Below, piece by piece: positions 3,092 to 14,375 of a DNA stretch of 53,825 nt. The first letter of the stretch is position 1. Every line of letters begins with the position of its first letter. Made by a program: the position numbers and the translations under genes. The stretch is from Thermoplasmata archaeon. Lineage in GTDB: Archaea > Thermoplasmatota > Thermoplasmata > Sysuiplasmatales > Sysuiplasmataceae. The stretch is taken from NCBI GenBank assembly GCA_021806165.1, contig JAJZXY010000016.1, positions 1 through 53,825 on the forward strand, written 5' to 3'. Below the pieces are notes generated by a model that had not been told where the DNA came from, did not search any database, and saw nothing but the letters and a program-made list of their open reading frames with translations.

Positions 3092-4825
3092 TCACCTGAA
3101 CAGGGCGGTCCTGGCCAGGTCTACAACCTCATTTCCCTTCCCGCTGAGGACCGCCTTTGCCATGTACAGCGTGAAGCCCTTCAGCTCCTCATAGTGTATT
3201 CCGGGGGGTACAATGAGTTCATGTCTGTTTACAGGGACATCGACAAGTGCAGGGCCCTCATGCCGTAAAGCCCTGGCGACCATGTCCTCCACATCCTCAC
3301 CTTTCTCAACGCTCAGGCCGAAGAGACCCGCCGCGCCTGCGACCTTTCCGAAGTCAGGATTGACAAGGTCCGTCCCGTACGGTATGATTCCGGCGCTCTT
3401 CATCTCGAGCTCAACAAAATCCAGAGCGCCGTTCTTGAACACAATTACCTTAACAGGCAGGTTGTGCTGCCCGAGTGTGAGAAGCTCGCCCAGGAGCATT
3501 GAAAGCCCCCCGTCTCCCGAGAGCGCAATAACCTGCCTTCCTGGAAATGCAGCCTGTGCCCCGATTGCCTGGGGTAGCGCTCCAGCCATTGAGCCGTGGG
3601 AGAAGGAGCCAAGCAGCTTCCTCCTGCCGTTCATTGTCAGGTACCTGGCAGCCCAAAGTGTCGGCGTACCCACGTCACATGTGAATATTGCGTCATCCGC
3701 TGCCAGCCTGTCAATAACCCTTGCAACATACTGCGGATGCACGGGAACCTGCCCCCTGCCCGGTTGCGCAAGAGCGTCAAGGTCTGCCCTGGTCCTGGCG
3801 TAATGCTCCAGCGAGTTCTTGAGGTGTCCGTCCGCGTCCTCCTTCGCCTTGAGATACTGCCTGAGTGCCCTCAGCGTGCTCCTGACATCTCCCCTGAGAC
3901 CGACATCCACATTCGTCCTCCTGCCAATCTGCTCTCCCCTGATGTCCACCTGTATTGTTTTGGCATGCCCTGGATAGAACTGCCTGTACGGGAAATCGGT
4001 GCCAAGCATCAGCAGTGCATCGGCATCCATCATCGCATGGTAGCCTGAGGAAAAACCAAGGAAACCTGTCATTCCCACATCATAGGGGTTGTCGTATTCA
4101 ATGAACTCCTTTCCCCTGAGCGCATGCACCACGGGTGATTTCAGCATCCCTGCGATTTCCATCAGCTCATCGTGCGCACCTTCGCACCCTGCACCGCCCA
4201 GGATGGTCACCTTGGATGCGGCATTCAGTATGTCCGCGGCCCTTCTCAGCTCTTCCTGCGGCGGGATCAGGGAGGATTTCTGCTCACCGGCGGGTGCAGC
4301 AGAGGCTGCACCTTCCATATCAAGCAGGGAAATGTCTCCCGGGAGAATCACCACAGAAACACAGCGTCTGCTGACGGAGGTGTGGATGGCAATCTCCAGG
4401 ACCCTTGCAATCTGCTCCGGACGCGACACGAGCTCACAGTATTCCGAGCATTCGCTGAAGAGCTGCGCCGGGTGCGTCTCCTGGAAATACCTGGTACCAA
4501 TCTCCCTGCTGGGAATGTGGGAGGCTATCGCGAGCACGGGAACCCTGCTCCTGTAGCAGTCGTAAAGACCGTTGATGAGGTGCAGGTTTCCCGGGCCGCA
4601 GCTTCCTGCGCAAACTGCCAGCCTGCCGGTTGACTGGGCCTCCGCGCCTGCCGCAAAGGCCGCCTCCTCCTCATGCCTGACCCCGAACCATTCTATCCTG
4701 TCGGACCTCGAGTGGATCGCGTCGGCCAGGCCGTTGAGTGAGTCTCCAACAATGCCGTATATTCTTTTCACACCTGATGCAGCCAGCGTCTCTATCAGGA
4801 AATCGGCAACCTTCATCTTCGGCAT
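3092..4825 (-). CDS. poxB: Pyruvate oxidase / pyruvate:quinone dehydrogenase-type ThDP enzyme
   Basis: About 577 residues, the length of E. coli PoxB. Order of domains: ThDP-binding pyrimidine domain (MKVADFLIETL to about 170, with the catalytic Glu in HEEEAAF near 52), a central FAD/Rossmann-like domain (GGAGCEGAHDEL region) and the C-terminal diphosphate-binding domain with GDGGLSML followed by the conserved Asn about residues 430-460. Motifs such as GSCGPGNLHLINGLYD favour pyruvate oxidases over acetolactate synthase. The enzyme would decarboxylate pyruvate and pass electrons to FAD and a membrane quinone. An open frame extends 13 codons further upstream, but MPKMKVADFL matches the family start. 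It begins 92 bases after the last Ehr-like operon gene on the same strand, suggesting possible co-transcription. Confidence 0.8.
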   Translation of the reverse strand: MPKMKVADFLIETLAASGVKRIYGIVGDSLNGLADAIHSRSDRIEWFGVRHEEEAAFAAGAEAQSTGRLAVCAGSCGPGNLHLINGLYDCYRSRVPVLAIASHIPSREIGTRYFQETHPAQLFSECSEYCELVSRPEQIARVLEIAIHTSVSRRCVSVVILPGDISLLDMEGAASAAPAGEQKSSLIPPQEELRRAADILNAASKVTILGGAGCEGAHDELMEIAGMLKSPVVHALRGKEFIEYDNPYDVGMTGFLGFSSGYHAMMDADALLMLGTDFPYRQFYPGHAKTIQVDIRGEQIGRRTNVDVGLRGDVRSTLRALRQYLKAKEDADGHLKNSLEHYARTRADLDALAQPGRGQVPVHPQYVARVIDRLAADDAIFTCDVGTPTLWAARYLTMNGRRKLLGSFSHGSMAGALPQAIGAQAAFPGRQVIALSGDGGLSMLLGELLTLGQHNLPVKVIVFKNGALDFVELEMKSAGIIPYGTDLVNPDFGKVAGAAGLFGLSVEKGEDVEDMVARALRHEGPALVDVPVNRHELIVPPGIHYEELKGFTLYMAKAVLSGKGNEVVDLARTALFR

Positions 4826-4916
4826 GATAATCGAGGATAAGCGAAAGGCTGTATCGTATATCACAGTGCCGAAATCGGTCAGGCCGCATGCGTAATGCTT
4901 GCTGTGCTGCGCCTGG

Positions 4917-6785
4917 TCATACTATGACATATACGAGGACGGCGAGAAATGCAATCAGCAGATAGAGCATGTACCTGCTGAGATCGCTGTTCATGAATGC
5001 AAGCGCGAAAGCGCGCGAAGCCTTCCCAAACCGCCCTGACACTCCAATGAGCCATTCCCAGAATATGTCGAATGAGGGTGCGGGGCCTCCATCCGCCGCA
5101 TCCCTGCCAGAGGGGTATACGTGTCTGAGTGTGAGCCTCAGTGCGTTTGCATATGCAAACGACACAGGTTCCTGCTCCCTTGCAACTCCGTTGTTCCACA
5201 CGGGAACAACCCTCACCCTCTTCCTCCCGAACAGCGCATAGCTGAGCAGCAGGAATATCAGCAGGAGGGCGGCAACGAACAGCGGTGAAACTACCCCGAA
5301 CGTACCCGCTGGTCCCGGTGAGGAAATCAGGAATCCCTGCGGCACGACAAGGAGACCGGTGAGCAGGCCGGCCGGGCTGCTTCCAGTTATGGCTTCGGTC
5401 ACCCCGCCTGCGGAACCTATAACCGCAATTCCAGCAAGACCAATCAGCAGAGAGATGGCACCGGCAGCGAGGATGGGGCCTGTCATCGTCCTCGCAGGAG
5501 TCGCAGCACTCCTCCTCACACGCCCGCCATACCCGTAGAACTTTGTCATGGCAACCAGGGTGATGCCTGCCCCCAGCGCAGCCATGGCGCCTGTGAAGGT
5601 TGAAAGGACAGAGATTGAGGGTGAGCTGAAAGTCACCATCACAAACAGTGTTTCCAGCATCATCCATTCGCCCAGTCCGCCGCCGAATGGAAGCATCCCT
5701 GAAAGTGAAAGCGCATTGAGCAGCCCGCCGGCAGAAAACAGGCCTGAGGATGTGCCTCCAATCCTGTTGAGGTCCAGAGTTCCGCTGGAACGCTCAATCA
5801 CGCCGGCAAAAAGGAAGAGACCCGTCTTCGAGACGGTGTGGGCGAAAACATACACCATCACACCAGCAAGAGCGAAGTTTGCAAGCAGCGAATCCCCTGA
5901 GTTCATGCTGACGACTGATGCACCAGTCAGAATCAGCATTGCGCCGCTGTTTTCAATTGTGCTGTAGGCTGGAAGCATCTTGACATGTTCAGAGGAAGCG
6001 GCATAGATCGCAGCGAAGAGGAGGGAGAACACGCCAATCGCCATCAGCAGTCCTCCAGTCAGGGTGGCGACCTGGACGAAGGTGAGTATGCGGAGTATGG
6101 AGTATATCGAAGCCATGGTCATGGTTGCGCTGAAGAGGACGGAGCCGTTGACAGGTGCGCCGCCGTGTGCAATAGGCAGCCACTCCGTCATCTGGAACGG
6201 TGTTATGCCGAGCTTTACCAGGAAGCCGACGAGCCCTGCAAAAACGGCAACCTGGCTGTATGCCGCTGCGGTGAAATCAGGCTTCCCGGTGGCTGCGTAG
6301 AAGTATGTGAACATGAGCAGTATGAGCAAGGCGCTGACCTCCCCGAAGACAAGGAAGACATAGGGAGGCAGGCGCCCTGTCCCCTTCTTGTAGCTTATCA
6401 GGAAGTAGCCTGATACGGACATTCCCTCCCACGCAATGAGGAACGGGAGGTAGCTGCGCGACAGTATTACCACAACAATGGAGAGAACCGCCATGTGATA
6501 TGCCGCTGTAACGGCCCTGCTGTAATTGTCATAGGCAACTGAGTACAGGGAGGTGAGAAGCCATGAGACTGCTCCAACCAGCAGGAAATACCACGACAGA
6601 GTGTCAAGCCCGAAGAGGGATCCGGCGGCAGTAAGCGACTCGCCTGCACCGTTCGTCATTATCGACCAGAACGCAGCAGCCGCAGTGACCAGCGAGGCTG
6701 CGATGCTCAGGCCGTACGATGTCTTCTTCGAAAATGCGGAGGCGGCCACGGGAAGGAGGAAGAGGAGCAGGAGCAGCTCAATCAT
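4917..6785 (-). CDS. HyfB/NuoL-like proton-translocating membrane subunit of the Ehr-like complex
   Basis: A 622-residue, very hydrophobic protein with about 14-16 membrane helices, matching antiporter-like subunits of hydrogenase-4 (HyfB) and complex I (NuoL/M). Key features seen: WEGMSVSGYFLISY with the conserved membrane glutamate (about residue 120), VKLGITPFQMTEWLPIAHGGAP with the conserved lysine and the GAP motif, and SSEHVKMLPAYSTIENSGAM with the lysine of the channel helix. Its ATG overlaps the stop of the preceding small-subunit gene as TGATG, so it is the last gene of the six-gene operon. It should carry out proton or sodium translocation driven by the peripheral arm. The short hydrophilic loop ahead of the last helix (about 570-600) is typical for HyfB. 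Confidence 0.85.
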   Translation of the reverse strand: MIELLLLLFLLPVAASAFSKKTSYGLSIAASLVTAAAAFWSIMTNGAGESLTAAGSLFGLDTLSWYFLLVGAVSWLLTSLYSVAYDNYSRAVTAAYHMAVLSIVVVILSRSYLPFLIAWEGMSVSGYFLISYKKGTGRLPPYVFLVFGEVSALLILLMFTYFYAATGKPDFTAAAYSQVAVFAGLVGFLVKLGITPFQMTEWLPIAHGGAPVNGSVLFSATMTMASIYSILRILTFVQVATLTGGLLMAIGVFSLLFAAIYAASSEHVKMLPAYSTIENSGAMLILTGASVVSMNSGDSLLANFALAGVMVYVFAHTVSKTGLFLFAGVIERSSGTLDLNRIGGTSSGLFSAGGLLNALSLSGMLPFGGGLGEWMMLETLFVMVTFSSPSISVLSTFTGAMAALGAGITLVAMTKFYGYGGRVRRSAATPARTMTGPILAAGAISLLIGLAGIAVIGSAGGVTEAITGSSPAGLLTGLLVVPQGFLISSPGPAGTFGVVSPLFVAALLLIFLLLSYALFGRKRVRVVPVWNNGVAREQEPVSFAYANALRLTLRHVYPSGRDAADGGPAPSFDIFWEWLIGVSGRFGKASRAFALAFMNSDLSRYMLYLLIAFLAVLVYVIV

Positions 6786-7414
6786 CAGGGTCCCCCTTTT
6801 GCCTTAACCAGCGCATCGAGTATGGTGAACGGTGTAGGGGGGCAGCCCGGGATGAGCACATCTGCCTTGAGCAGCCCGCTCACGCCTTCACCGAGAATTC
6901 CGCCCGATATTGCGCAGGTGCCCGCAGCCATTACCAGCTTGGGTTCAGGCATTGCCTCATACGCACGCATAAGCGGCTCTTTCATCCCCTCTGCCAGCGT
7001 TCCCACAACAAGCAGGGCGTCCGCATGCCTCGGCGTGCTGGTGAAGTTGATGCCAAGCCTGTGCGCATCGTATATGGGATTGGACAGTGTCTTGACCTCG
7101 AGGTTGCATGCACCGCATGACCCTGTGTCGATGACGAAGACCGTGAAAGATTTCCTGAACCTCTTCTCCACCCTTCCGATGACCGAGATGTCGATCTTCC
7201 CCTCGGGGGAGAAGGGGCCGCTGCACCTTCCGCATGAAATGCACCTGTCCATCCTCACCTCCCCGTCTTCAATGGCATCCGCCGGGCAGGTTACATCCCC
7301 CTCACCCGTCCTGACGGGTCTTGTCGACCATGGGGAAACGGACTCAGGCTCCCCGTATGGGAAGCGCGTTGTCACCCTCCCCTTCTTCACCCCGCGCAGG
7401 ACCCAGTTTCTCAT
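6785..7414 (-). CDS. Fused ferredoxin-domain plus NuoB/HyfI-like Fe-S subunit
   Basis: The 209-residue protein joins two parts that are separate in E. coli hydrogenase-4. Residues 35-75 hold one [4Fe-4S] ferredoxin-like site (Cys43 in TCPADAI, then Cys58, Cys61, Cys64). Residues 88-205 are the small subunit of the NuoB/HyfI/EchC type, with the four ligands of the proximal [4Fe-4S] cluster at Cys100, Cys103, Cys167 and Cys191 (PGCPP). All cluster ligands are intact, so electrons should still flow through it, even though the partner large subunit has lost its NiFe ligands. The ATG overlaps the stop of the large-subunit gene as ATGA and its own stop overlaps the HyfB-like start. Confidence 0.85.
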   Translation of the reverse strand: MRNWVLRGVKKGRVTTRFPYGEPESVSPWSTRPVRTGEGDVTCPADAIEDGEVRMDRCISCGRCSGPFSPEGKIDISVIGRVEKRFRKSFTVFVIDTGSCGACNLEVKTLSNPIYDAHRLGINFTSTPRHADALLVVGTLAEGMKEPLMRAYEAMPEPKLVMAAGTCAISGGILGEGVSGLLKADVLIPGCPPTPFTILDALVKAKGGP

Positions 7415-8616
7415 GAATAACCCCCAAGCTCGGATATCCAGAAACCGAAACTCTCCCAGCCGAAGGTAAAGTCTGTGAGAATGCCCGATGTCGCCGACTG
7501 GACAAATGCCAGCAGGTTTGCTGCCGATGCAGAACGGATGTCGAAATCAGTCACGATGCTGTCGGCGAGGCCCAGAAGCATCAGCATGTCCCCGCCCGGC
7601 GTTTCCACGCGCTTCACGGCCCAACCCCTTCCGCGGACCTTCTCACTGCTGCCCCTGGCAGCACCCTTCATGCTGTGGCACACCTCATCCACCAGGATGG
7701 AGGAGATTTCAATCTCCTTCTGCCTGACCAGCGCCCTTGACAGCACATCGCCGGTGTCATCAGTGGCCACCTCAAAGCTCAGGTCACTGTAGGGCAGATA
7801 GCCGGAAAGCCTGCTGTCATACCTGAAATCGGCAGCCCTGACGGCAGGCCCGACCATCCATTCATAGTCTGCACGGCATGTGGTCTGGAGCCTGTCCAGG
7901 AAGAGCCTCGAGGATGTAAGATCCTCCCAAATCGAGGCAAACTCATGAGCCACACCCTCAACCTTTGGTGCCAGCGACCTCGTATCCAGGCCCCTTTCAA
8001 GCGCCCCGATGCCGTTGACGCCGAAGAAGTAGCGGTGGCCGAAATGCTCCGATGCAATCCTCCTCGTCCTCTCCTCCAGTGCGAAGAGGTGCTGGGCGGC
8101 AACGTTCTGGGATGCCCCCTCAGTCAGCTTGGCTATGACGTGTATGTGGTTCGCAATCCTCTCTACCTCCGTCATGAGTATTCTGGCAAGCTTGACTTCA
8201 TGCGGCGGCTCAATCCCTCCTATCTCCTCCGCAGCCATGCAGAATGCAGTGGAGAAAGCAGCAGAGTATGCCCCGTTTATCCGTTCAGCCTTCAGGAGGG
8301 CGGCCGGCGCCTCCGAGCTCTTCATTGCAGGCTGCCTGTTCTTGAACAGCACATCCGGGCTGATATGCGCCATTCTCTCCCCGTCCGTGTATACATCCAT
8401 CCTCACGCTCTCCAGGAGCCCGCCGGACACGGGCCCGAGGTTGAACCTGAAGAGATCAGGCCTCTCCCTCGTATCGGCCTTTCCGGTAAGGAAGAGGCTG
8501 TTCTCGTGCGCGCTGACCTCCTGGAGGGTGCACGGGATCAGCCTGGTGGACTGATGCCCCTTCACGCAGAGCATTTCACCCTCAATCGTGAAGACTGCCG
8601 AAAGTGAATCATCCAA
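7411..8616 (-). CDS. Hydrogenase/NuoD-like large subunit lacking the NiFe ligands
   Basis: About 400 residues homologous to HycE/HyfG/EchE and NuoD: VKLARILMTEVERIANHI, GVNGIGALERGLD and the RADYEWMVGPAVRAA segment are typical of the group. In NiFe hydrogenases the N-terminal motif is RxCGxC; here the same place reads ERINGAYS (about residues 111-118), replacing both cysteines by Asn and Tyr. The C-terminal DPCxxC is replaced by DFTFGW (about 382-387). The protein therefore cannot bind a standard NiFe site and belongs with Ehr-type complexes. The start is uncertain: a TTG at 8616, close behind a GGGG run and overlapping the stop of the previous gene, is preferred over the longer TTG at 8646. 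The frame between is open. Confidence 0.8.
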   Translation of the reverse strand: MDDSLSAVFTIEGEMLCVKGHQSTRLIPCTLQEVSAHENSLFLTGKADTRERPDLFRFNLGPVSGGLLESVRMDVYTDGERMAHISPDVLFKNRQPAMKSSEAPAALLKAERINGAYSAAFSTAFCMAAEEIGGIEPPHEVKLARILMTEVERIANHIHVIAKLTEGASQNVAAQHLFALEERTRRIASEHFGHRYFFGVNGIGALERGLDTRSLAPKVEGVAHEFASIWEDLTSSRLFLDRLQTTCRADYEWMVGPAVRAADFRYDSRLSGYLPYSDLSFEVATDDTGDVLSRALVRQKEIEISSILVDEVCHSMKGAARGSSEKVRGRGWAVKRVETPGGDMLMLLGLADSIVTDFDIRSASAANLLAFVQSATSGILTDFTFGWESFGFWISELGGYS

Positions 8617-9964
8617 GATGGAAACCCCCTGCAGCAAAGAACGCAACCGTCACGGCGGCCGACAGTATGAATGCGGTCATCGCCACTGCGCGCTGGGAAG
8701 CGCCAACCTCCCCACCGCCTTCACCCGAAGTGGAGAAGACCATTCCAGCCACCTTGTAGTTGATGCTTGCAAATGCAATGGCGAGGCAGGCGGCCACAAT
8801 TGCAGATATGTACCAGAAGCCGGCCATGTAGAGTGAGAGGAGTATCAGGAATTCACCGATGAATGTGCCAAATGGAGGAGAGCCCGTGACACTGAGAGAG
8901 GAGAACAGGAGGGATATGGAGGTGTGGGGCATGTTCTCCCTCATGTTGCGTATGTCTGCAATGTTCCTTGTGCGGTAGCTTTCAAGCACGTTGCCAGATG
9001 AGTAGAATGCTCCAGCCTTGCCGAATGCATGCGAGACAAGCAGCACTATTGCCCCCGCGTATCCGACACCACCCGCGATGAAGCCGAGGACCATCAGTCC
9101 CATGTTCTCCATTGTAGAATAGGCGAACATGCGCTTCAGATCCCTCTGTGAAACAAGCATGAATGCAGCTATGGCAACGGTCATCACAGCAAAGAAGAGG
9201 TAGAGATATTCCATCCTCGCGCTGGATGTCACCTGGTAGACCCTGAAGAGGGCATAGACTGCAACGGGAAGAAGCACTCCCGAGAACATTGCGCTCACCT
9301 CCGAGGGGGCCCTGCTGTGCGCATCAGGGAGCCAGGTGTGCATCGGTACCAGGCCGATCTTGGTGCCGTAGCCCACCAGTGCGGTTGCAGCAGCTATCTC
9401 CAGCGGAATGGAGACAGCCCTCTTTGCCGAGAGGAGGACCGATATTGAGAGCGTCCCGTAGACGAAATATATCATGATGACTGAGATGAGACCTATGGTC
9501 AGCCCCGCTGAGACTATCACCACATACCTCCATGCCGCCTCCACATCAAGCGGCTCCCTCTCGATTACAAGCAGCAGTGCGCTGGAAACTGTGGTCGCCT
9601 CGACACCTATCCAGAGGAGGCCGAAGTCGTTGACCATCAGCGAGAAGAGCATGCTGGCAGCGAAGAGATCCATCAGTGAAAGATGGAACCTCAGATTCCT
9701 TGATTCCCCAAGCCTGCTGTGATAGCCCAGTCCGAACGCCACCGACAGCAGGTAGATTGAGGCCACCGTGAGCACAATGGGCCTGTTGAGAGAATCGACA
9801 AGGAAGAATGAGGACTCGCTTACAGAGGTCAGATTGAGCAGCAGGGCAGCCGCCGCTGTAACCGAGGCGGATAGCAGGTGCAGTATCCTGAACCTCCGTG
9901 CAAAGTAGCTAAGCGAGAATATGACGGGCACCAGCAGTATGACCGGCGGGAGGATGTTCATCAT
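8609..9964 (-). CDS. HyfF/NuoN-like antiporter-type membrane subunit
   Basis: A 451-residue protein with about 13-14 membrane helices of the NuoM/N/HyfF type. Visible motifs are WIGVEATTVSSALLL with the conserved membrane glutamate, GYGTKIGLVPMHTWLPDAHSRAPSEVSAMFSG with the functional lysine and the HSRAP motif, and QRDLKRMFAYSTMENMGLM with the channel lysine and the ENMG segment. It is the second antiporter-like pump in the operon besides HyfB. Its ATG overlaps the stop of the HyfE-like gene as ATGA (9964-9961). It would form part of the membrane arm and move ions across the cytoplasmic membrane. Confidence 0.85.
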   Translation of the reverse strand: MMNILPPVILLVPVIFSLSYFARRFRILHLLSASVTAAAALLLNLTSVSESSFFLVDSLNRPIVLTVASIYLLSVAFGLGYHSRLGESRNLRFHLSLMDLFAASMLFSLMVNDFGLLWIGVEATTVSSALLLVIEREPLDVEAAWRYVVIVSAGLTIGLISVIMIYFVYGTLSISVLLSAKRAVSIPLEIAAATALVGYGTKIGLVPMHTWLPDAHSRAPSEVSAMFSGVLLPVAVYALFRVYQVTSSARMEYLYLFFAVMTVAIAAFMLVSQRDLKRMFAYSTMENMGLMVLGFIAGGVGYAGAIVLLVSHAFGKAGAFYSSGNVLESYRTRNIADIRNMRENMPHTSISLLFSSLSVTGSPPFGTFIGEFLILLSLYMAGFWYISAIVAACLAIAFASINYKVAGMVFSTSGEGGGEVGASQRAVAMTAFILSAAVTVAFFAAGGFHLG

Positions 9965-10542
9965 CCCATCAGCTCCCTTACAGGCACATGCTCGATCTTC
10001 TCATGTATCAGCACCGCGCCCGCAACCACCAGCGCCAGCACATCGAGCAGTATGTTTATCTCTATGACAAGGGGGAGCGCTATTATGCTCAGGCTCATGA
10101 GGACTATTCCATTCTCCTCCTCGACGAATCCTATGAAGTGCGCGAAGCTGTTGCGCCTGGTCAGGATCAGAAGCATTCCCTGTGTGATCAGCGCCAGTGC
10201 AATTGCGCCGTCGGGGTGCCCCACCGAAGGGTAGAACGCAAGCCTGTAGAGTATGAATGAGACTATGAAGACGACGACGCTTGAGAGGAGTGCGGTCCCC
10301 GTGCCCGTGGAGTATTCCCTGATGAACTTCCTGCCCTGCGGCAGCCTCTTCGCCAGCACGTACGTGAGGAGCACACCCCGGAGCAGAACGATGAGCGCAG
10401 CAAGGAGAATCAGGAGATAATTGCGCTCCGCAATGCCAAGGTATGTTGCCATGGCAGCAAGCAGGACCGATTGGGTGATGAGCGTGTTTATCATCGGCCT
10501 GATGTATGAACTGATCTGGACTGCGAGGGCAGATATGAGCAT
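9961..10542 (-). CDS. HyfE/NuoK-like small membrane subunit
   Basis: About 194 residues, six to seven hydrophobic helices, matching HyfE (a NuoK-like core plus extra helices). Typical segments are MINTLITQSVLLAAMATYLG, the LLTYVLAKRLPQGRKF loop and HFIGFVEEENGIVLMSL with acidic residues of the channel. The ATG at 10542 is the first standard start, but homology appears to begin slightly upstream (VVNFLAIL), behind GGAGGT at the end of the preceding gene, so a non-ATG start near 10570 is possible. It lies between the HyfC-like and HyfF-like genes and is translationally coupled to the latter. Confidence 0.8.
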   Translation of the reverse strand: MLISALAVQISSYIRPMINTLITQSVLLAAMATYLGIAERNYLLILLAALIVLLRGVLLTYVLAKRLPQGRKFIREYSTGTGTALLSSVVVFIVSFILYRLAFYPSVGHPDGAIALALITQGMLLILTRRNSFAHFIGFVEEENGIVLMSLSIIALPLVIEINILLDVLALVVAGAVLIHEKIEHVPVRELMG

Positions 10543-10577
10543 CAGTATTGCCAGGAAGTTTACAACCTCCTGGTCTA

Positions 10578-11525
10578 TCAGAGCAGTCCCCCCAGGGAGT
10601 AGGTGATGACCGAGAACACTGCAAGGGCAAAGGAGAGAGTCAGGTAGTCCTGAATCTTGAACAGCCTGAGCTTCGCAAGCGTCTCCTCCAGATAGACAAT
10701 CACCACTGCCACGACAAGCCACTTGCCCAGCATTATCGGTATGTCGAGCAGGGAGCCGGCCAGGCCCGCCTGCATGAACCATGGAAACACGAACACATTG
10801 ATCAGAACGGAGCCGAGGAGATACTGTTTCATCAGCGAAGAGTACTTCAGCAGGAAGAGGTGCCTTCCAGAGTATTCGTAGTTGCGGGCCTCGTCAATCA
10901 TGCCGAATTCCATCATGCCCGTACTCTCTGTCGGCAGCCTGCCTGTCTCGAACAGGAAGAGCATGAAGAATGCAACGCTGGAAAGGAGGTGGGGGAGTGT
11001 CAGGTAGTTGCCTGCCGAAGCAGCAATGAGGTCGTGTGTGATGTACGGGTTGTTGCTGCTGCTTATGAGCGCCACGGCAAAGAAGACCATGATCAGCGTT
11101 GGTTCGGCGTATGCGGAAAATGTAACGGAGCGGGCCGCTCCGAGGGAGGTGAAGGAGCTCCTTGCATCCAGGGCCGCGATTATCTGGATTACGGCTGCAA
11201 GCACGAAAAGCAGTCCGCCGCCCAGGAAGTCCACAACGGGGCTAAGCTCATTGGGATATGGGAGTATGACAGGTATCACGAACGAAATGAGCAGGTAGAT
11301 GCTGAAAACCATGTAAGGCGCGAGGTCGAAGAATGCTGTCGTGTCGCTGTTGACCACCGTCTCCTTCCGCAGGTACTTCGCAAGGTCGTAATAGGGCTGG
11401 AGGATCCTCGGACCCCTTCTTGATTCAACCCTGGCCTTGATGCGGGCTATAAACCCCTCAACGAGAGGGGCAAGCAGGAGAACTCCGGCAATCTGTATAA
11501 CCGTTTCAACCCAGAGGTTCGACAA
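10578..11525 (-). CDS. HyfC/NuoH-like membrane anchor subunit, first gene of the Ehr-like operon
   Basis: A 315-residue protein with about eight membrane helices, matching NuoH/HyfC/EchB, the subunit joining membrane and peripheral arms. The cytosolic loop KARVESRRGPRILQPYYDLAKYLRKE is diagnostic, as are ALDARSSFTSLGAARSVTFSAYAEP (conserved acidic residues of the E-channel) and ESTGMMEFGMIDEARNYEYSG. Translation probably starts at TTG 11525, which has a GGTGG ribosome-binding sequence five bases upstream. It opens the operon HyfC-HyfE-HyfF-large-small-HyfB, with all following genes overlapping or nearly touching, so a single transcript is likely. Confidence 0.85.
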   Translation of the reverse strand: MSNLWVETVIQIAGVLLLAPLVEGFIARIKARVESRRGPRILQPYYDLAKYLRKETVVNSDTTAFFDLAPYMVFSIYLLISFVIPVILPYPNELSPVVDFLGGGLLFVLAAVIQIIAALDARSSFTSLGAARSVTFSAYAEPTLIMVFFAVALISSSNNPYITHDLIAASAGNYLTLPHLLSSVAFFMLFLFETGRLPTESTGMMEFGMIDEARNYEYSGRHLFLLKYSSLMKQYLLGSVLINVFVFPWFMQAGLAGSLLDIPIMLGKWLVVAVVIVYLEETLAKLRLFKIQDYLTLSFALAVFSVITYSLGGLL

Positions 11526-11595
11526 CCTACCACCTTTTTCAGAGTAGACGTCATCAACCCTCGGCGGGGTGTTTCACGGCTAACGTCATAGCCTA

Positions 11596-11613
11596 CCCTC
11601 CGAATTGGGAGGG
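11596..11613. promoter_or_regulatory. Inverted repeat CCCTCC-N6-GGAGGG at the Ehr-like operon promoter
   Basis: Two perfect 6-base arms flank GAATTG. The element sits between the leftward TATA-like sequence and the expected transcript start, where a bound repressor would block archaeal initiation. A closely similar element (CCCC TGAATT GGGG) occupies the same position at hemA (19848-19861). Function as a shared operator is inference. Confidence 0.45.
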
Positions 11614-11623
11614 ATATTAAAAT
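11614..11623 (-). promoter_or_regulatory. TATA-like element for the Ehr-like operon
   Basis: On the minus strand it reads ATTTTAATAT. Transcription would start about 25 bases further left, near 11590, giving a leader of about 65-70 bases before the TTG start of the HyfC-like gene. Confidence 0.45.
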
Positions 11624-11707
11624 CTTTTTGCAGCGGTTCGGGAAGGCGCCGGCCCTGATTCAGCAATGGCAAGTGCTGAAACGATTTCACGCCTCCTGAA
11701 AAGTGAT

Positions 11708-12487
11708 TCACGCCTGCGTTAGACGGCTGTCAGAGAGTATTTCCCTGAGCATAGATTCATAATCTGTCCTTGTCGATATGTTGCATCTGCCGCTGTAGTG
11801 CGCCCCCACCTCACCGGCAGTTTCATCTCCGATGGCCCACAGCTCACACCGCGAAAGTGCAGCAGACAGGTCCAGGCCCCCGGCAGCGGTGGACGCTGCC
11901 ATGAAGAAGTTCCTGGCCATCATGCTGCTCGAGAAGGGCAGTATGTACTGCGTGCCACCGATTATCTCCCCGACAACCGCCAGCAGATGAGAGCGATCAG
12001 CCGGAAGGCCGATGCGGTAGAGGGGAAACTCCTCTACTGTCAGCCCCTTTCCCTCCAATCCATTCCTGATAACGCTGCTTCCGCTGTCGCTGCGCAGCAC
12101 AGCAACAACCTCCCCGCTGGCCGCACTGGCACCAACCCATTCCACCACCCCCCAGGATGAATGTCTGCGGGGCAGGTCAGGGCTCACACCATTCGACAGG
12201 AGGCTCTTCATCGTCCCCGTTCCGACGGCCACCACATGGAGGCCCTGCCTTGTCAGCATAGCTGTGCTGACACCCGCCTCGCCCACGGCCCTTTCCACCG
12301 CCGTCGAACTCATGAATACACAGTAGTCCGCCGTCTTGAGAGCGCCGTGCAGCCTTTTCCTGTCGACATCCATGCCTGAAATCTCTATCGCCGGTGCAAT
12401 TACAGGCTCCACACCTGCCTCCCTGCATATCCTGGCCGCCTCTTCAGACCTGCCTGCAGGACGCATAAGCGCAATCTTTCTCTTCAT
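11708..12487 (-). CDS. hemD: Uroporphyrinogen-III synthase
   Basis: About 259 residues, the usual size. The protein has the two-lobed HemD fold: KIALMRPAGRSEEAARICREAGVEPVIAPAIEI at the N terminus and FSSSMMARNFF in the middle, and GRCNISTRTDYESMLREIL at the end, which matches the family's C-terminal helix. It closes hydroxymethylbilane with D-ring inversion to uroporphyrinogen III. The start was set at the ATG 12487, because it overlaps the hemC stop as ATGA and begins with the typical first strand. It is the last gene of the leftward hemB-hemC-hemD operon. Sequence conservation in HemD is low in general, but the operon context makes the call secure. Confidence 0.88.
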   Translation of the reverse strand: MKRKIALMRPAGRSEEAARICREAGVEPVIAPAIEISGMDVDRKRLHGALKTADYCVFMSSTAVERAVGEAGVSTAMLTRQGLHVVAVGTGTMKSLLSNGVSPDLPRRHSSWGVVEWVGASAASGEVVAVLRSDSGSSVIRNGLEGKGLTVEEFPLYRIGLPADRSHLLAVVGEIIGGTQYILPFSSSMMARNFFMAASTAAGGLDLSAALSRCELWAIGDETAGEVGAHYSGRCNISTRTDYESMLREILSDSRLTQA

Positions 12488-13410
12488 CTCTCCGGCTGCC
12501 CTTCCTCCATTCCCGTCCACCTGCCTTCTATGATTGACCTGGAGACTTCGTCTGTGAACGGCTGCAGCACTCCACCTATCCCCTCCTTCCCCGCCACAAC
12601 AGCCGAAACCTTCTTTTCGATGCTGCCGTCAGGGGAGAGGAGCTGGATCCTGATGTGCACGCCTCTGCCAAGCGAAAGTGCGCTCACACCCAGGGGTGAG
12701 TTACACCCTGCGCCAAGCTGTGAAAGGACCTCCCTTTCCATTTCCACCTCCCTCCTGGTTGCACCGTGGTCCGCCCTTTCCGCCACCTTTGCCGGGAGGC
12801 GCCCGGAGGCGGTCACAAGGGCGAGCGCCCCCTGGCAGGCAGCCGGGACAAACTTCTCCACAGGAAGGGGGTGGAGGTGCAGGCCGCTGCTTGGGCGGTA
12901 GCCTATCCTGTCAAGCCCGCACAGTGCAAGGACTGCCGCCTCAGGCTTGCCTTTCTCCACCTTCCCAAGCCGTGTCGTGACATTTCCCCTGAGCATCACC
13001 GGCTCCAGATCACCCCTCTCCCTCAGAAGCTGCGCTATCCTCCTGGCGCTGGAGCTTCCCACACCGGAGCCGGTGGGCAGGCGGGTATAATATTCGCGCG
13101 ACACCAGGCAGTCGCCCCTTCTCCCCCTTGCTGGTATGACAGGCAGCTCAAGTCCCTGAGGGAGGTTGACAGGCAGGTCCTTCATGCTGTGGATTCCGCC
13201 ATCCAGCTCTCCATTCAGCACAAGAATGTTGATGTCTGCGGCAAAAGAACCCACTTTAGGCCTCATCCCCTTCCCACCTCTGTCGCCTGAAGTCCTGACG
13301 GTGACCAGGCGTATCTCCTCATCCAGCCCCGCATCCCTGAGCACCCCCGTTATCTCCTCTGCCTGCGCGAGGGCGAGGGCGCTGCCCCTGGTTCCAAGCC
13401 TGAATGTCAT
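12484..13410 (-). CDS. hemC: Hydroxymethylbilane synthase (porphobilinogen deaminase)
   Basis: 308 residues. It begins RLGTRGSALALAQA, the classic HemC start, and has HSMKDLP (residues 74-80) for substrate binding and GAGCNSPLG with Cys236, which carries the dipyrromethane cofactor. It joins four porphobilinogen units into hydroxymethylbilane in the cytoplasm. Its ATG overlaps the hemB stop as ATGA and its own stop overlaps hemD in the same way, so the three proteins should be made in a coupled fashion. Nothing is missing compared with the family. Confidence 0.95.
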   Translation of the reverse strand: MTFRLGTRGSALALAQAEEITGVLRDAGLDEEIRLVTVRTSGDRGGKGMRPKVGSFAADINILVLNGELDGGIHSMKDLPVNLPQGLELPVIPARGRRGDCLVSREYYTRLPTGSGVGSSSARRIAQLLRERGDLEPVMLRGNVTTRLGKVEKGKPEAAVLALCGLDRIGYRPSSGLHLHPLPVEKFVPAACQGALALVTASGRLPAKVAERADHGATRREVEMEREVLSQLGAGCNSPLGVSALSLGRGVHIRIQLLSPDGSIEKKVSAVVAGKEGIGGVLQPFTDEVSRSIIEGRWTGMEEGQPER

Positions 13411-14375
13411 TCAATCCAACCCGCCAGTTCTGGGGCGCTGTATGTGATGAGTATGTCAGCTCCGGATCTGAAGATGGATGTGGCAGCCTCGATTACGGCA
13501 GACCTGTAGTCGATCATGCCCAGCTTCGAGGCTGCCTTCAGCATGCTGTACTCCCCGCTTACGCTGTACGCGGCGAGCGGGAGATCGAATCTCTCCCTGG
13601 CCCTGCATATTATGTCCAGGTTTGGCATCGCCGGCTTGACCATGAGTATGTCCGCCCCCTCTTCGGCGTCAAGCTGAAGCTCCCTCATTGATTCCCTCGC
13701 ATTTGCGAAGTTGAGCTGGTATCCCTTCCTGTCGCCTCCGGCCGGGGCGCTCTCTGCCGCCTCCCTGAACGGGCCGTAGAATGAGGACGCGCTCTTGGAA
13801 GCATATGCCATAATCATAGTTTCGCTGTGGCCGCTCCCGTCAAGCGCCTTCCTTATTGCTCCCACCTGCCCGTCCATCATGCCGCTCGGCGCGATGATGT
13901 GCGCACCCGCCTCCGCCTGCGAAACTGCAATCTTCGCATAAGTGCCAAGGGTCGCATCGTTGTCGATATCTCCGCCTCTGATTATTCCGCACTGTCCGTT
14001 GGAGGTGTATTCACACAGGCACAGGTCTGCCGCAACCGTCAGCGAGCTCCCTTCCCTGATCTCACCGATTGCGCGCTGAACAACGCCGTCCGACGAGAAT
14101 GCTCCCGAACCGCTGGCATCTTTCGTGCGGGGCACACCGAACAGCAGGACGGAGCGTATGCCCTTCTCCTCAAGCTCAGCGGCAAGTTTCCTGAGACTGC
14201 CCAGGGGATACGTGAACTGCCCCGGCATCAGCATTATTTCGCGCTTCCTCCTGCTCCTCCCGTCAACGAATACGGGGTATACCATCCTCGAGGTGTGCAG
14301 CCTTGTCTCGGCAAGCATATCCCTTATGCCTGCGCTCCTCCTCAGCCTTCTCATCCTTGTTGCCGGAAATGACAT
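13407..14375 (-). CDS. hemB: Delta-aminolevulinic acid dehydratase (porphobilinogen synthase)
   Basis: 322 residues, full length. The catalytic lysines are in ASKSASSFYGPF (Lys194) and ILMVKPAMP (Lys247). The cysteine triplet LCLCEYTSNGQCG (Cys119, Cys121, Cys129) marks it as the zinc-dependent type. It condenses two 5-aminolevulinate molecules to porphobilinogen. It is the first gene of the leftward hemB-hemC-hemD operon. A TATA-like element on the minus strand at about 14428-14419 would place the transcript start some 20-25 bases before the ATG. The divergent HemY-type oxidase gene starts 123 bases away. Confidence 0.95.
   Translation of the reverse strand: MSFPATRMRRLRRSAGIRDMLAETRLHTSRMVYPVFVDGRSRRKREIMLMPGQFTYPLGSLRKLAAELEEKGIRSVLLFGVPRTKDASGSGAFSSDGVVQRAIGEIREGSSLTVAADLCLCEYTSNGQCGIIRGGDIDNDATLGTYAKIAVSQAEAGAHIIAPSGMMDGQVGAIRKALDGSGHSETMIMAYASKSASSFYGPFREAAESAPAGGDRKGYQLNFANARESMRELQLDAEEGADILMVKPAMPNLDIICRARERFDLPLAAYSVSGEYSMLKAASKLGMIDYRSAVIEAATSIFRSGADILITYSAPELAGWIE

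Follow-up and report, generated by a model that had tools for sequence, protein, structure and literature searches.

The large subunit of the energy-converting hydrogenase-related (Ehr) complexes resembles that of the group 4 hydrogenases, except that its CxxC pairs are missing, and it is accompanied by partner proteins similar to those of complex I and Hyf and by antiporter-like pumps; the function or electron acceptor of these complexes is unknown (PMC6349859, PMC4378227, PMC10432482, PMC10284858). The six-gene operon described here, which occupies positions 4917–11525 on the minus strand of a Thermoplasmata contig (the window, i.e., the whole stretch of 53,825 nucleotides that was analyzed), shares all of these features and also encodes a small subunit with a proximal cluster and a membrane anchor. 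Group 4 homologues without both NiFe motifs were reported for the Thermoplasmatales in 2013 (PMC3750248), and the complex is thus an Ehr complex of a known kind, to which those of acidophilic Thermoplasmatales also belong. Relative to the accessible portions of this literature, what seems to be new in the lineage is the loss of the canopy, the one-cluster ferredoxin domain, the retained proton glutamate and the placement among Hyc-type enzymes. We tentatively read the complex as a minimal complex I-like pump, derived from a Hyc/Hyf-type [NiFe] hydrogenase, that may pass electrons from a low-potential carrier to a quinone.

The six open reading frames (ORFs) have overlapping ends, and their order, strand, coordinates and junctions were checked. 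Family assignments based upon Pfam and NCBIfam profiles agree with a preliminary description of this DNA, which had named the same six overlapping genes.

10578–11525, minus strand: HyfC/HycD/NuoH-like membrane anchor and E-channel subunit, TTG start (Pfam NADHdh, 5.7e-29)
9961–10581, minus strand: HyfE-like membrane subunit (NCBIfam hydrogenase 4 membrane subunit, 7.7e-07, under the cut-off)
8609–9964, minus strand: HyfF antiporter-like pump subunit (NCBIfam hydrogenase 4 subunit F, 449 bits, cut-off 437)
7411–8646, minus strand: HyfG/NuoD-like large subunit without NiFe ligands (Pfam Complex1_49kDa, 9.3e-13)
6785–7414, minus strand: ferredoxin-NuoB fusion with an N-terminal ferredoxin-type domain (Pfam Oxidored_q6, 5e-24)
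4917–6785, minus strand: HyfB antiporter-like pump subunit (NCBIfam hydrogenase 4 subunit B, 460 bits, equal to the cut-off of 460)

The top PDB matches were HycD (7z0s_D) and MbhM for HyfC, HycG (7z0s_G) and MbhJ for the fusion protein, and HycC (7z0s_C) for HyfB. The assignment of HyfE is also based upon its conserved operon position in relatives, and its start is uncertain, as the ORF is open to 10782 and a CTG at 10581 overlaps the HyfC stop. The gene order C-E-F-G-(Fd-B)-B is found in all Thermoplasmata loci that cover the operon, but it differs in Marsarchaeota (F-G-(Fd-B)-B-C-E).

Ancestry of the Large Subunit and Loss of the NiFe Site

In a tree of 89 sequences (LG+G4+F), the lineage to which the large subunit belongs was supported at 99% with its basal members and at 76% without them. 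Clades that additionally included its bacterial relatives, then the ERISGD-type Ehr proteins and lastly HycE each had 100% support. This branching supports the view that the large subunit forms an Ehr clade nested among the Hyc-type hydrogenases. The Ehr identity proposed earlier is upheld by this placement and by the lack of CxxC pairs at the NiFe sites and of HypD in the genome (see below). The AlphaFold model of the protein (pLDDT 88.9, pTM 0.91) has HycE (7z0s_E; TM 0.80 over the query) as its closest PDB fold, followed by complex I subunits, and in profile comparisons MbhL ranked first and HycE second, with complex I subunits and MbsL lower. Named relatives are mostly Thermoplasmata (Candidatus Sysuiplasma superficiale, Ferroplasma acidarmanus Fer1, E-plasma, Cuniculiplasma), together with a Marsarchaeota G2 metagenome-assembled genome; the window's own family contains the genomes G001–G007, and no relatives were found in the viral contigs searched. 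In some genomes the operon occurs twice, as divergent copies (L054/L064 on one E-plasma scaffold, L044/L065, L039/L045; also G137 and G140), and in L064 the large-subunit match is split over two ORFs.

The alignment of 36 large subunits of this lineage with those of hydrogenases and complex I was checked by numbering on HycE. In it, HycE D192, E193, C241, C244, S283, and H284 correspond to positions 78, 79, 124, 127, 166, and 167 of the window protein, and R395, E437, R478, D529, C531, and C534 to positions 270, 311, 351, 401, 403, and 406. All four NiFe cysteines are gone, their places being taken by N124 and Y127 in the first motif (L1) and by W403 and E406 in the second (L2), and no CxxC pair is present at either NiFe site. 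The preliminary description had also claimed the loss of both pairs, and its location of L1 in ERINGAYS (N124/Y127) was correct. However, the segment that it took for L2, DFTFGW (392–397), aligns with DIPIIAA of the hydrogenases, and the true L2 positions lie about 11 residues downstream. Chance or sequencing error as the source of these changes is excluded because none of the 36 related sequences, including that from the complete genome of Fer1 (L062), has the full ligand set.

Position 124 is Asn in 32 of the 36 proteins and Cys in the other four; position 127 is His in 22, Tyr in seven, Leu in four and Phe in three. Trp is found at position 403 in 27 and Glu at 406 in 35, and H204 is invariant. 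Such conservation, with His or Tyr at position 127 in 29/36, would suit a new redox site in which another metal or a small molecule, held at the Asn, His/Tyr, Trp/His, and Glu positions, acts as the catalyst or acceptor. The window protein has Tyr and Trp, which are poor metal ligands, at two of these four positions, and we consider such a site unlikely.

The canopy above the active site is also lost. HycE R478 is replaced by G351 and D529 by G401; the latter position is Gly in all 36 proteins, and the former is Gly, Ser, Gln, or Ala in all of them. The sister Ehr clade, by comparison, retains the canopy Arg in 6/6 and the Asp in 1/6 of its members, and Asp529 has been described as strictly conserved, and Arg478 as Arg or Lys, over hydrogenases and complex I (PMC9474812). 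No earlier report of a double canopy loss was found in the accessible portions of the literature. Compared with that of hydrogenases, the cavity for the acceptor probably has more room and carries less charge.

The host genome (1.88 Mb, 33 contigs) is 96% complete, and no match to HypD was found in it. Of two marks of a group 4 [NiFe] hydrogenase, the four NiFe cysteines and HypD, neither was thus found. A working hydrogenase with unusual ligation would fit the nested position of the large subunit among group 4 enzymes and its proton-transfer glutamate (see below), but with four ligands, both canopy residues and HypD missing this is extremely improbable, and the complex is almost certainly not a hydrogenase.

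The Ferredoxin-NuoB Fusion

The proximal-cluster ligands C100, C103, C167, and C191 have hydrogenase-type spacing and are kept in the window protein and in all relatives that cover them. The ferredoxin domain has a single [4Fe-4S] ligand set (C43, C58, C61, C64). None of the 34 lineage members has the ligands for a second cluster: the upstream three are missing, as is the final one of the second motif, and the eighth Cys position is F, Y, or L. The earlier claim that all Fe-S ligands of the small subunit are kept therefore holds for the NuoB part, but in the ferredoxin domain only one cluster of two remains. The kept cluster is presumably the one next to N2 (i.e., N6b kept and N6a lost), judging from the ligands of Thermus Nqo9.

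The window protein thus differs from the two-cluster ferredoxin-like subunit of the sister Ehr clade. We take the one-cluster domain as a variation within Ehr rather than a reason for exclusion from it; the accessible portions of the Ehr literature do not treat a two-cluster ferredoxin subunit as defining. In four sister Ehr proteins (L017, L018, L020, L030) two full motifs are fused to NuoB, and hence the fusion appears to be older than the loss of the outer cluster. The bacterial relatives (L067–L069) also have the one-cluster form. Odd ferredoxin domains were seen in L016 (G019), where an irregular Cys-rich stretch replaces the usual motif, and in L118 (G063).

Retention of all eight Fe-S cysteines, in the window as well as across the family, implies selection for electron transfer. 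This argues against the idea that redox chemistry has been lost and that the complex is now a cation/proton antiporter, and although other members of the phylum have Cys-less Ehr operons and both antiporter subunits are intact here, we regard this as very unlikely.

The Cys-less operons, L119 (G037:C73, 1870–9017) and L145 (G176:C4, 772–7939), are complete six-gene operons of the sister type. In their NuoB-like subunit, which has no ferredoxin domain, other residues stand in place of all four proximal-cluster cysteines (SGSDNS, GDDAC, PGNPP). As these replacements are common to two genomes of different classes (66% identity), the two operons may represent Ehr without any redox centre, possibly a pure transporter.

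Proton Path and Pump Subunits

The large subunit retains E79, N166, H167, R270, and E311. The glutamate of the β1–β2 loop (E193 in HycE, E21 in MbhL, E79 here) is present in 36/36 lineage members and in all 16 hydrogenases compared. In complex I this position is Gly and the quinone His lies one position before it (13/13). The canopy-side proton path (H284/E437/R395 in HycE numbering) is kept in 30/36, 36/36, and 36/36 proteins, respectively. Residues 74–76 of the loop are among the few low-confidence segments of the AlphaFold model, as would be expected for a mobile loop; its flexibility has been described for complex I and, as probable, for formate hydrogenlyase (PMC9474812).

In HyfC, E141, E193, and E217 are invariant in 30 homologues. 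As had been noted previously, both pump subunits retain their conserved charged residues: E122, K202, H216, K277, H312, and K316 of HyfF in 31/31 sequences and E371 in 30/31, and E120, K191, H316, and K320 of HyfB in 33/33. Based upon these residues, the complex is very probably an ion pump.

Genomic Distribution and the Electron Acceptor

Co-occurrence was examined in 151 Thermoplasmata genomes that are at least 85% complete, the lineage being called by its small subunit at E ≤ 1e-44. It was present in 30 of them. HypD was found in 1/30 of these genomes versus 75/121 of the others (Fisher p 1e-9, kinship ignored), and COX1 or cytochrome bd in 28/30 versus 43/121 (Fisher p 4e-9, kinship likewise ignored). 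The host has a terminal oxidase. Its gene for cytochrome bd subunit I (G000:C1:2407-3640) lies in three pieces with stop codons, which indicates a pseudogene or an assembly error. A genome of the same genus (G001) has no copy of this Ehr complex; its [NiFe] large subunit is intact (ERVCGICS, DPCFGC), and nearby genes were read as encoding HypE, HypF, and a maturation protease. HypD and cytochrome bd are also present in G001, but COX1 is not. At the locus concerned (L120, G001:C3, ~3397–14094), the group 4 [NiFe] hydrogenase is intact and is accompanied by NuoH/I/J/K/L-like as well as maturation-like genes.

Due to the co-occurrence with oxidases and the nature of the new residues, which are mostly His or Tyr plus Trp, quinone is the leading candidate, and a membrane quinone could plausibly be the acceptor, an assignment that we make with reserve. 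In the mechanism that we propose, a diffusible low-potential carrier (ferredoxin or similar) would donate electrons to the single cluster of the ferredoxin domain. From there they would reach the proximal cluster and, finally, an organic acceptor occupying the space vacated by NiFe and the canopy. The acceptor, most likely a membrane quinone, would be held by the new residues N124, H/Y127, W403, and E406, and protonation via E79 and the E-channel would drive HyfF and HyfB. More tentative still is the full proposal that this is a six-subunit carrier:quinone oxidoreductase with a two-cluster wire, in which a quinone site arose anew, without relation to that of complex I, inside a defunct hydrogenase site.

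Several points weigh against the proposed mechanism. The His and Tyr that bind quinone in complex I are missing in 36/36 lineage members (L78 and G125 in the window; the Tyr position is Gly in 35/36), so that any quinone site would have arisen anew and would differ from that of complex I. The host has two large-subunit genes of the superfamily, the HyfG of the window and a complex I-type NuoD, and a second quinone reductase may therefore look redundant. Additionally, the co-occurrence p values do not account for phylogeny, no oxidase was detected in two of the Ehr genomes (G063 and G120), and no donor gene is linked to the operon.

The same anatomy would also serve for operation in reverse, in which a low-potential carrier is reduced via the same two clusters by quinol electrons, at the expense of the very steep proton gradient that acidophiles maintain. 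Complex I-like machines are generally known to be reversible, and the relatives are acidophile lineages, mostly with oxidases; however, the locus gives no pointer to direction, and aerobic heterotrophic archaea usually obtain reduced ferredoxin from 2-oxoacid oxidoreductases. Reverse operation thus appears improbable. The proposal in the preliminary description that a soluble donor drives ion pumping without H2 must still be worded conditionally. It has been narrowed by the lack of the complex I quinone ligands and of the features of the sulfur reductase MBS (see below), by the retained proton residues and by the co-occurrence with oxidases.

The electron acceptor of Ehr is an open question on which this lineage bears. 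As its metal-site surroundings, including the canopy, are gone and the proton-delivery residues and the pump are kept, it offers a natural way of asking whether a particular acceptor is required for pumping in this superfamily. Its presence in the cultured F. acidarmanus Fer1 (L062) and in the genus Cuniculiplasma opens the question to experiment. A convergent quinone site, if real, would also bear on the origin of complex I.

Genes Surrounding the Operon

No widely conserved partner gene was found beside the operon across the loci of relatives. The neighbour clusters that were found either occur in just four loci, which are closely related, or are ABC-type ATPases whose distance from the operon varies. 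The neighbours in the window are as follows.

3092–4864, minus strand: PoxB-like pyruvate:quinone oxidoreductase (915 bits, cut-off 792)
11708–14375, minus strand, upstream of the operon: HemD (Pfam), followed by a HemC-like and a HemB-like ORF

The PoxB-like gene lies about 50 bp downstream of HyfB on the same strand. It was considered as the donor and rejected, as no such neighbour is present beside the operon in the relatives' loci.

Comparison with Known Systems

Within Ehr, the window lineage differs from the sister clade in lacking both the canopy pair and the outer ferredoxin cluster. The putative group 4 hydrogenase/formate hydrogenlyase-like clusters of acid mine drainage plasmas (Fer1, E-, and G-plasma; PMC3750248) belong, judged by organism, to the same lineage, and our family includes members from Fer1 (L062) and E-plasma (L054, L064). 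The residue-level anatomy, the Hyc-type placement, the reduction of the ferredoxin domain and the co-occurrence go beyond the accessible part of that report.

The sulfane sulfur reductase MBS (Mbx) of Pyrococcus is likewise a NiFe-free group 4 relative with ion pumping, and it also has no complex I quinone ligands (PMC7684303). As sulfur is common in the habitats of acidophilic Thermoplasmata, the complex could reduce sulfane sulfur or polysulfide, catalysis then taking place at the proximal cluster. However, the three-residue shortening of the MbsJ loop that frees one iron is missing here, the small subunit being gapless against MbhJ in this region with four cysteines rather than three, and MbsL keeps two L1/L2 cysteines (PMC7684303), whereas the window protein has none. 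With both of these structural hallmarks missing, MBS-type sulfur reduction is disfavoured. The equivalent of MbhL E21, invariant in our lineage, is also missing in MbsL (PMC7684303), which by profile is further from the window protein than MbhL, HycE, and several complex I subunits, and the window operon has no Mrp-type Na+ module. We therefore view this alternative as quite unlikely.

With complex I, the window complex shares the core, the proximal (N2-type) cluster, the pump subunits and a Glu at the second L2 position, but it has neither the quinone His and Tyr nor the canopy pair, and its NuoB part has a CxxC (C100-x-x-C103) in place of the tandem Cys of complex I. Formate hydrogenlyase (7z0s) is the top PDB match by sequence for HyfC, HyfB, and the NuoB part and by fold for the large subunit, and the two share E193 and the H284/E437/R395 path (HycE numbering). 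Unlike formate hydrogenlyase, the window complex has no NiFe ligands or canopy and no FdhF or HycB in its operon, which encodes two antiporter subunits as opposed to one.

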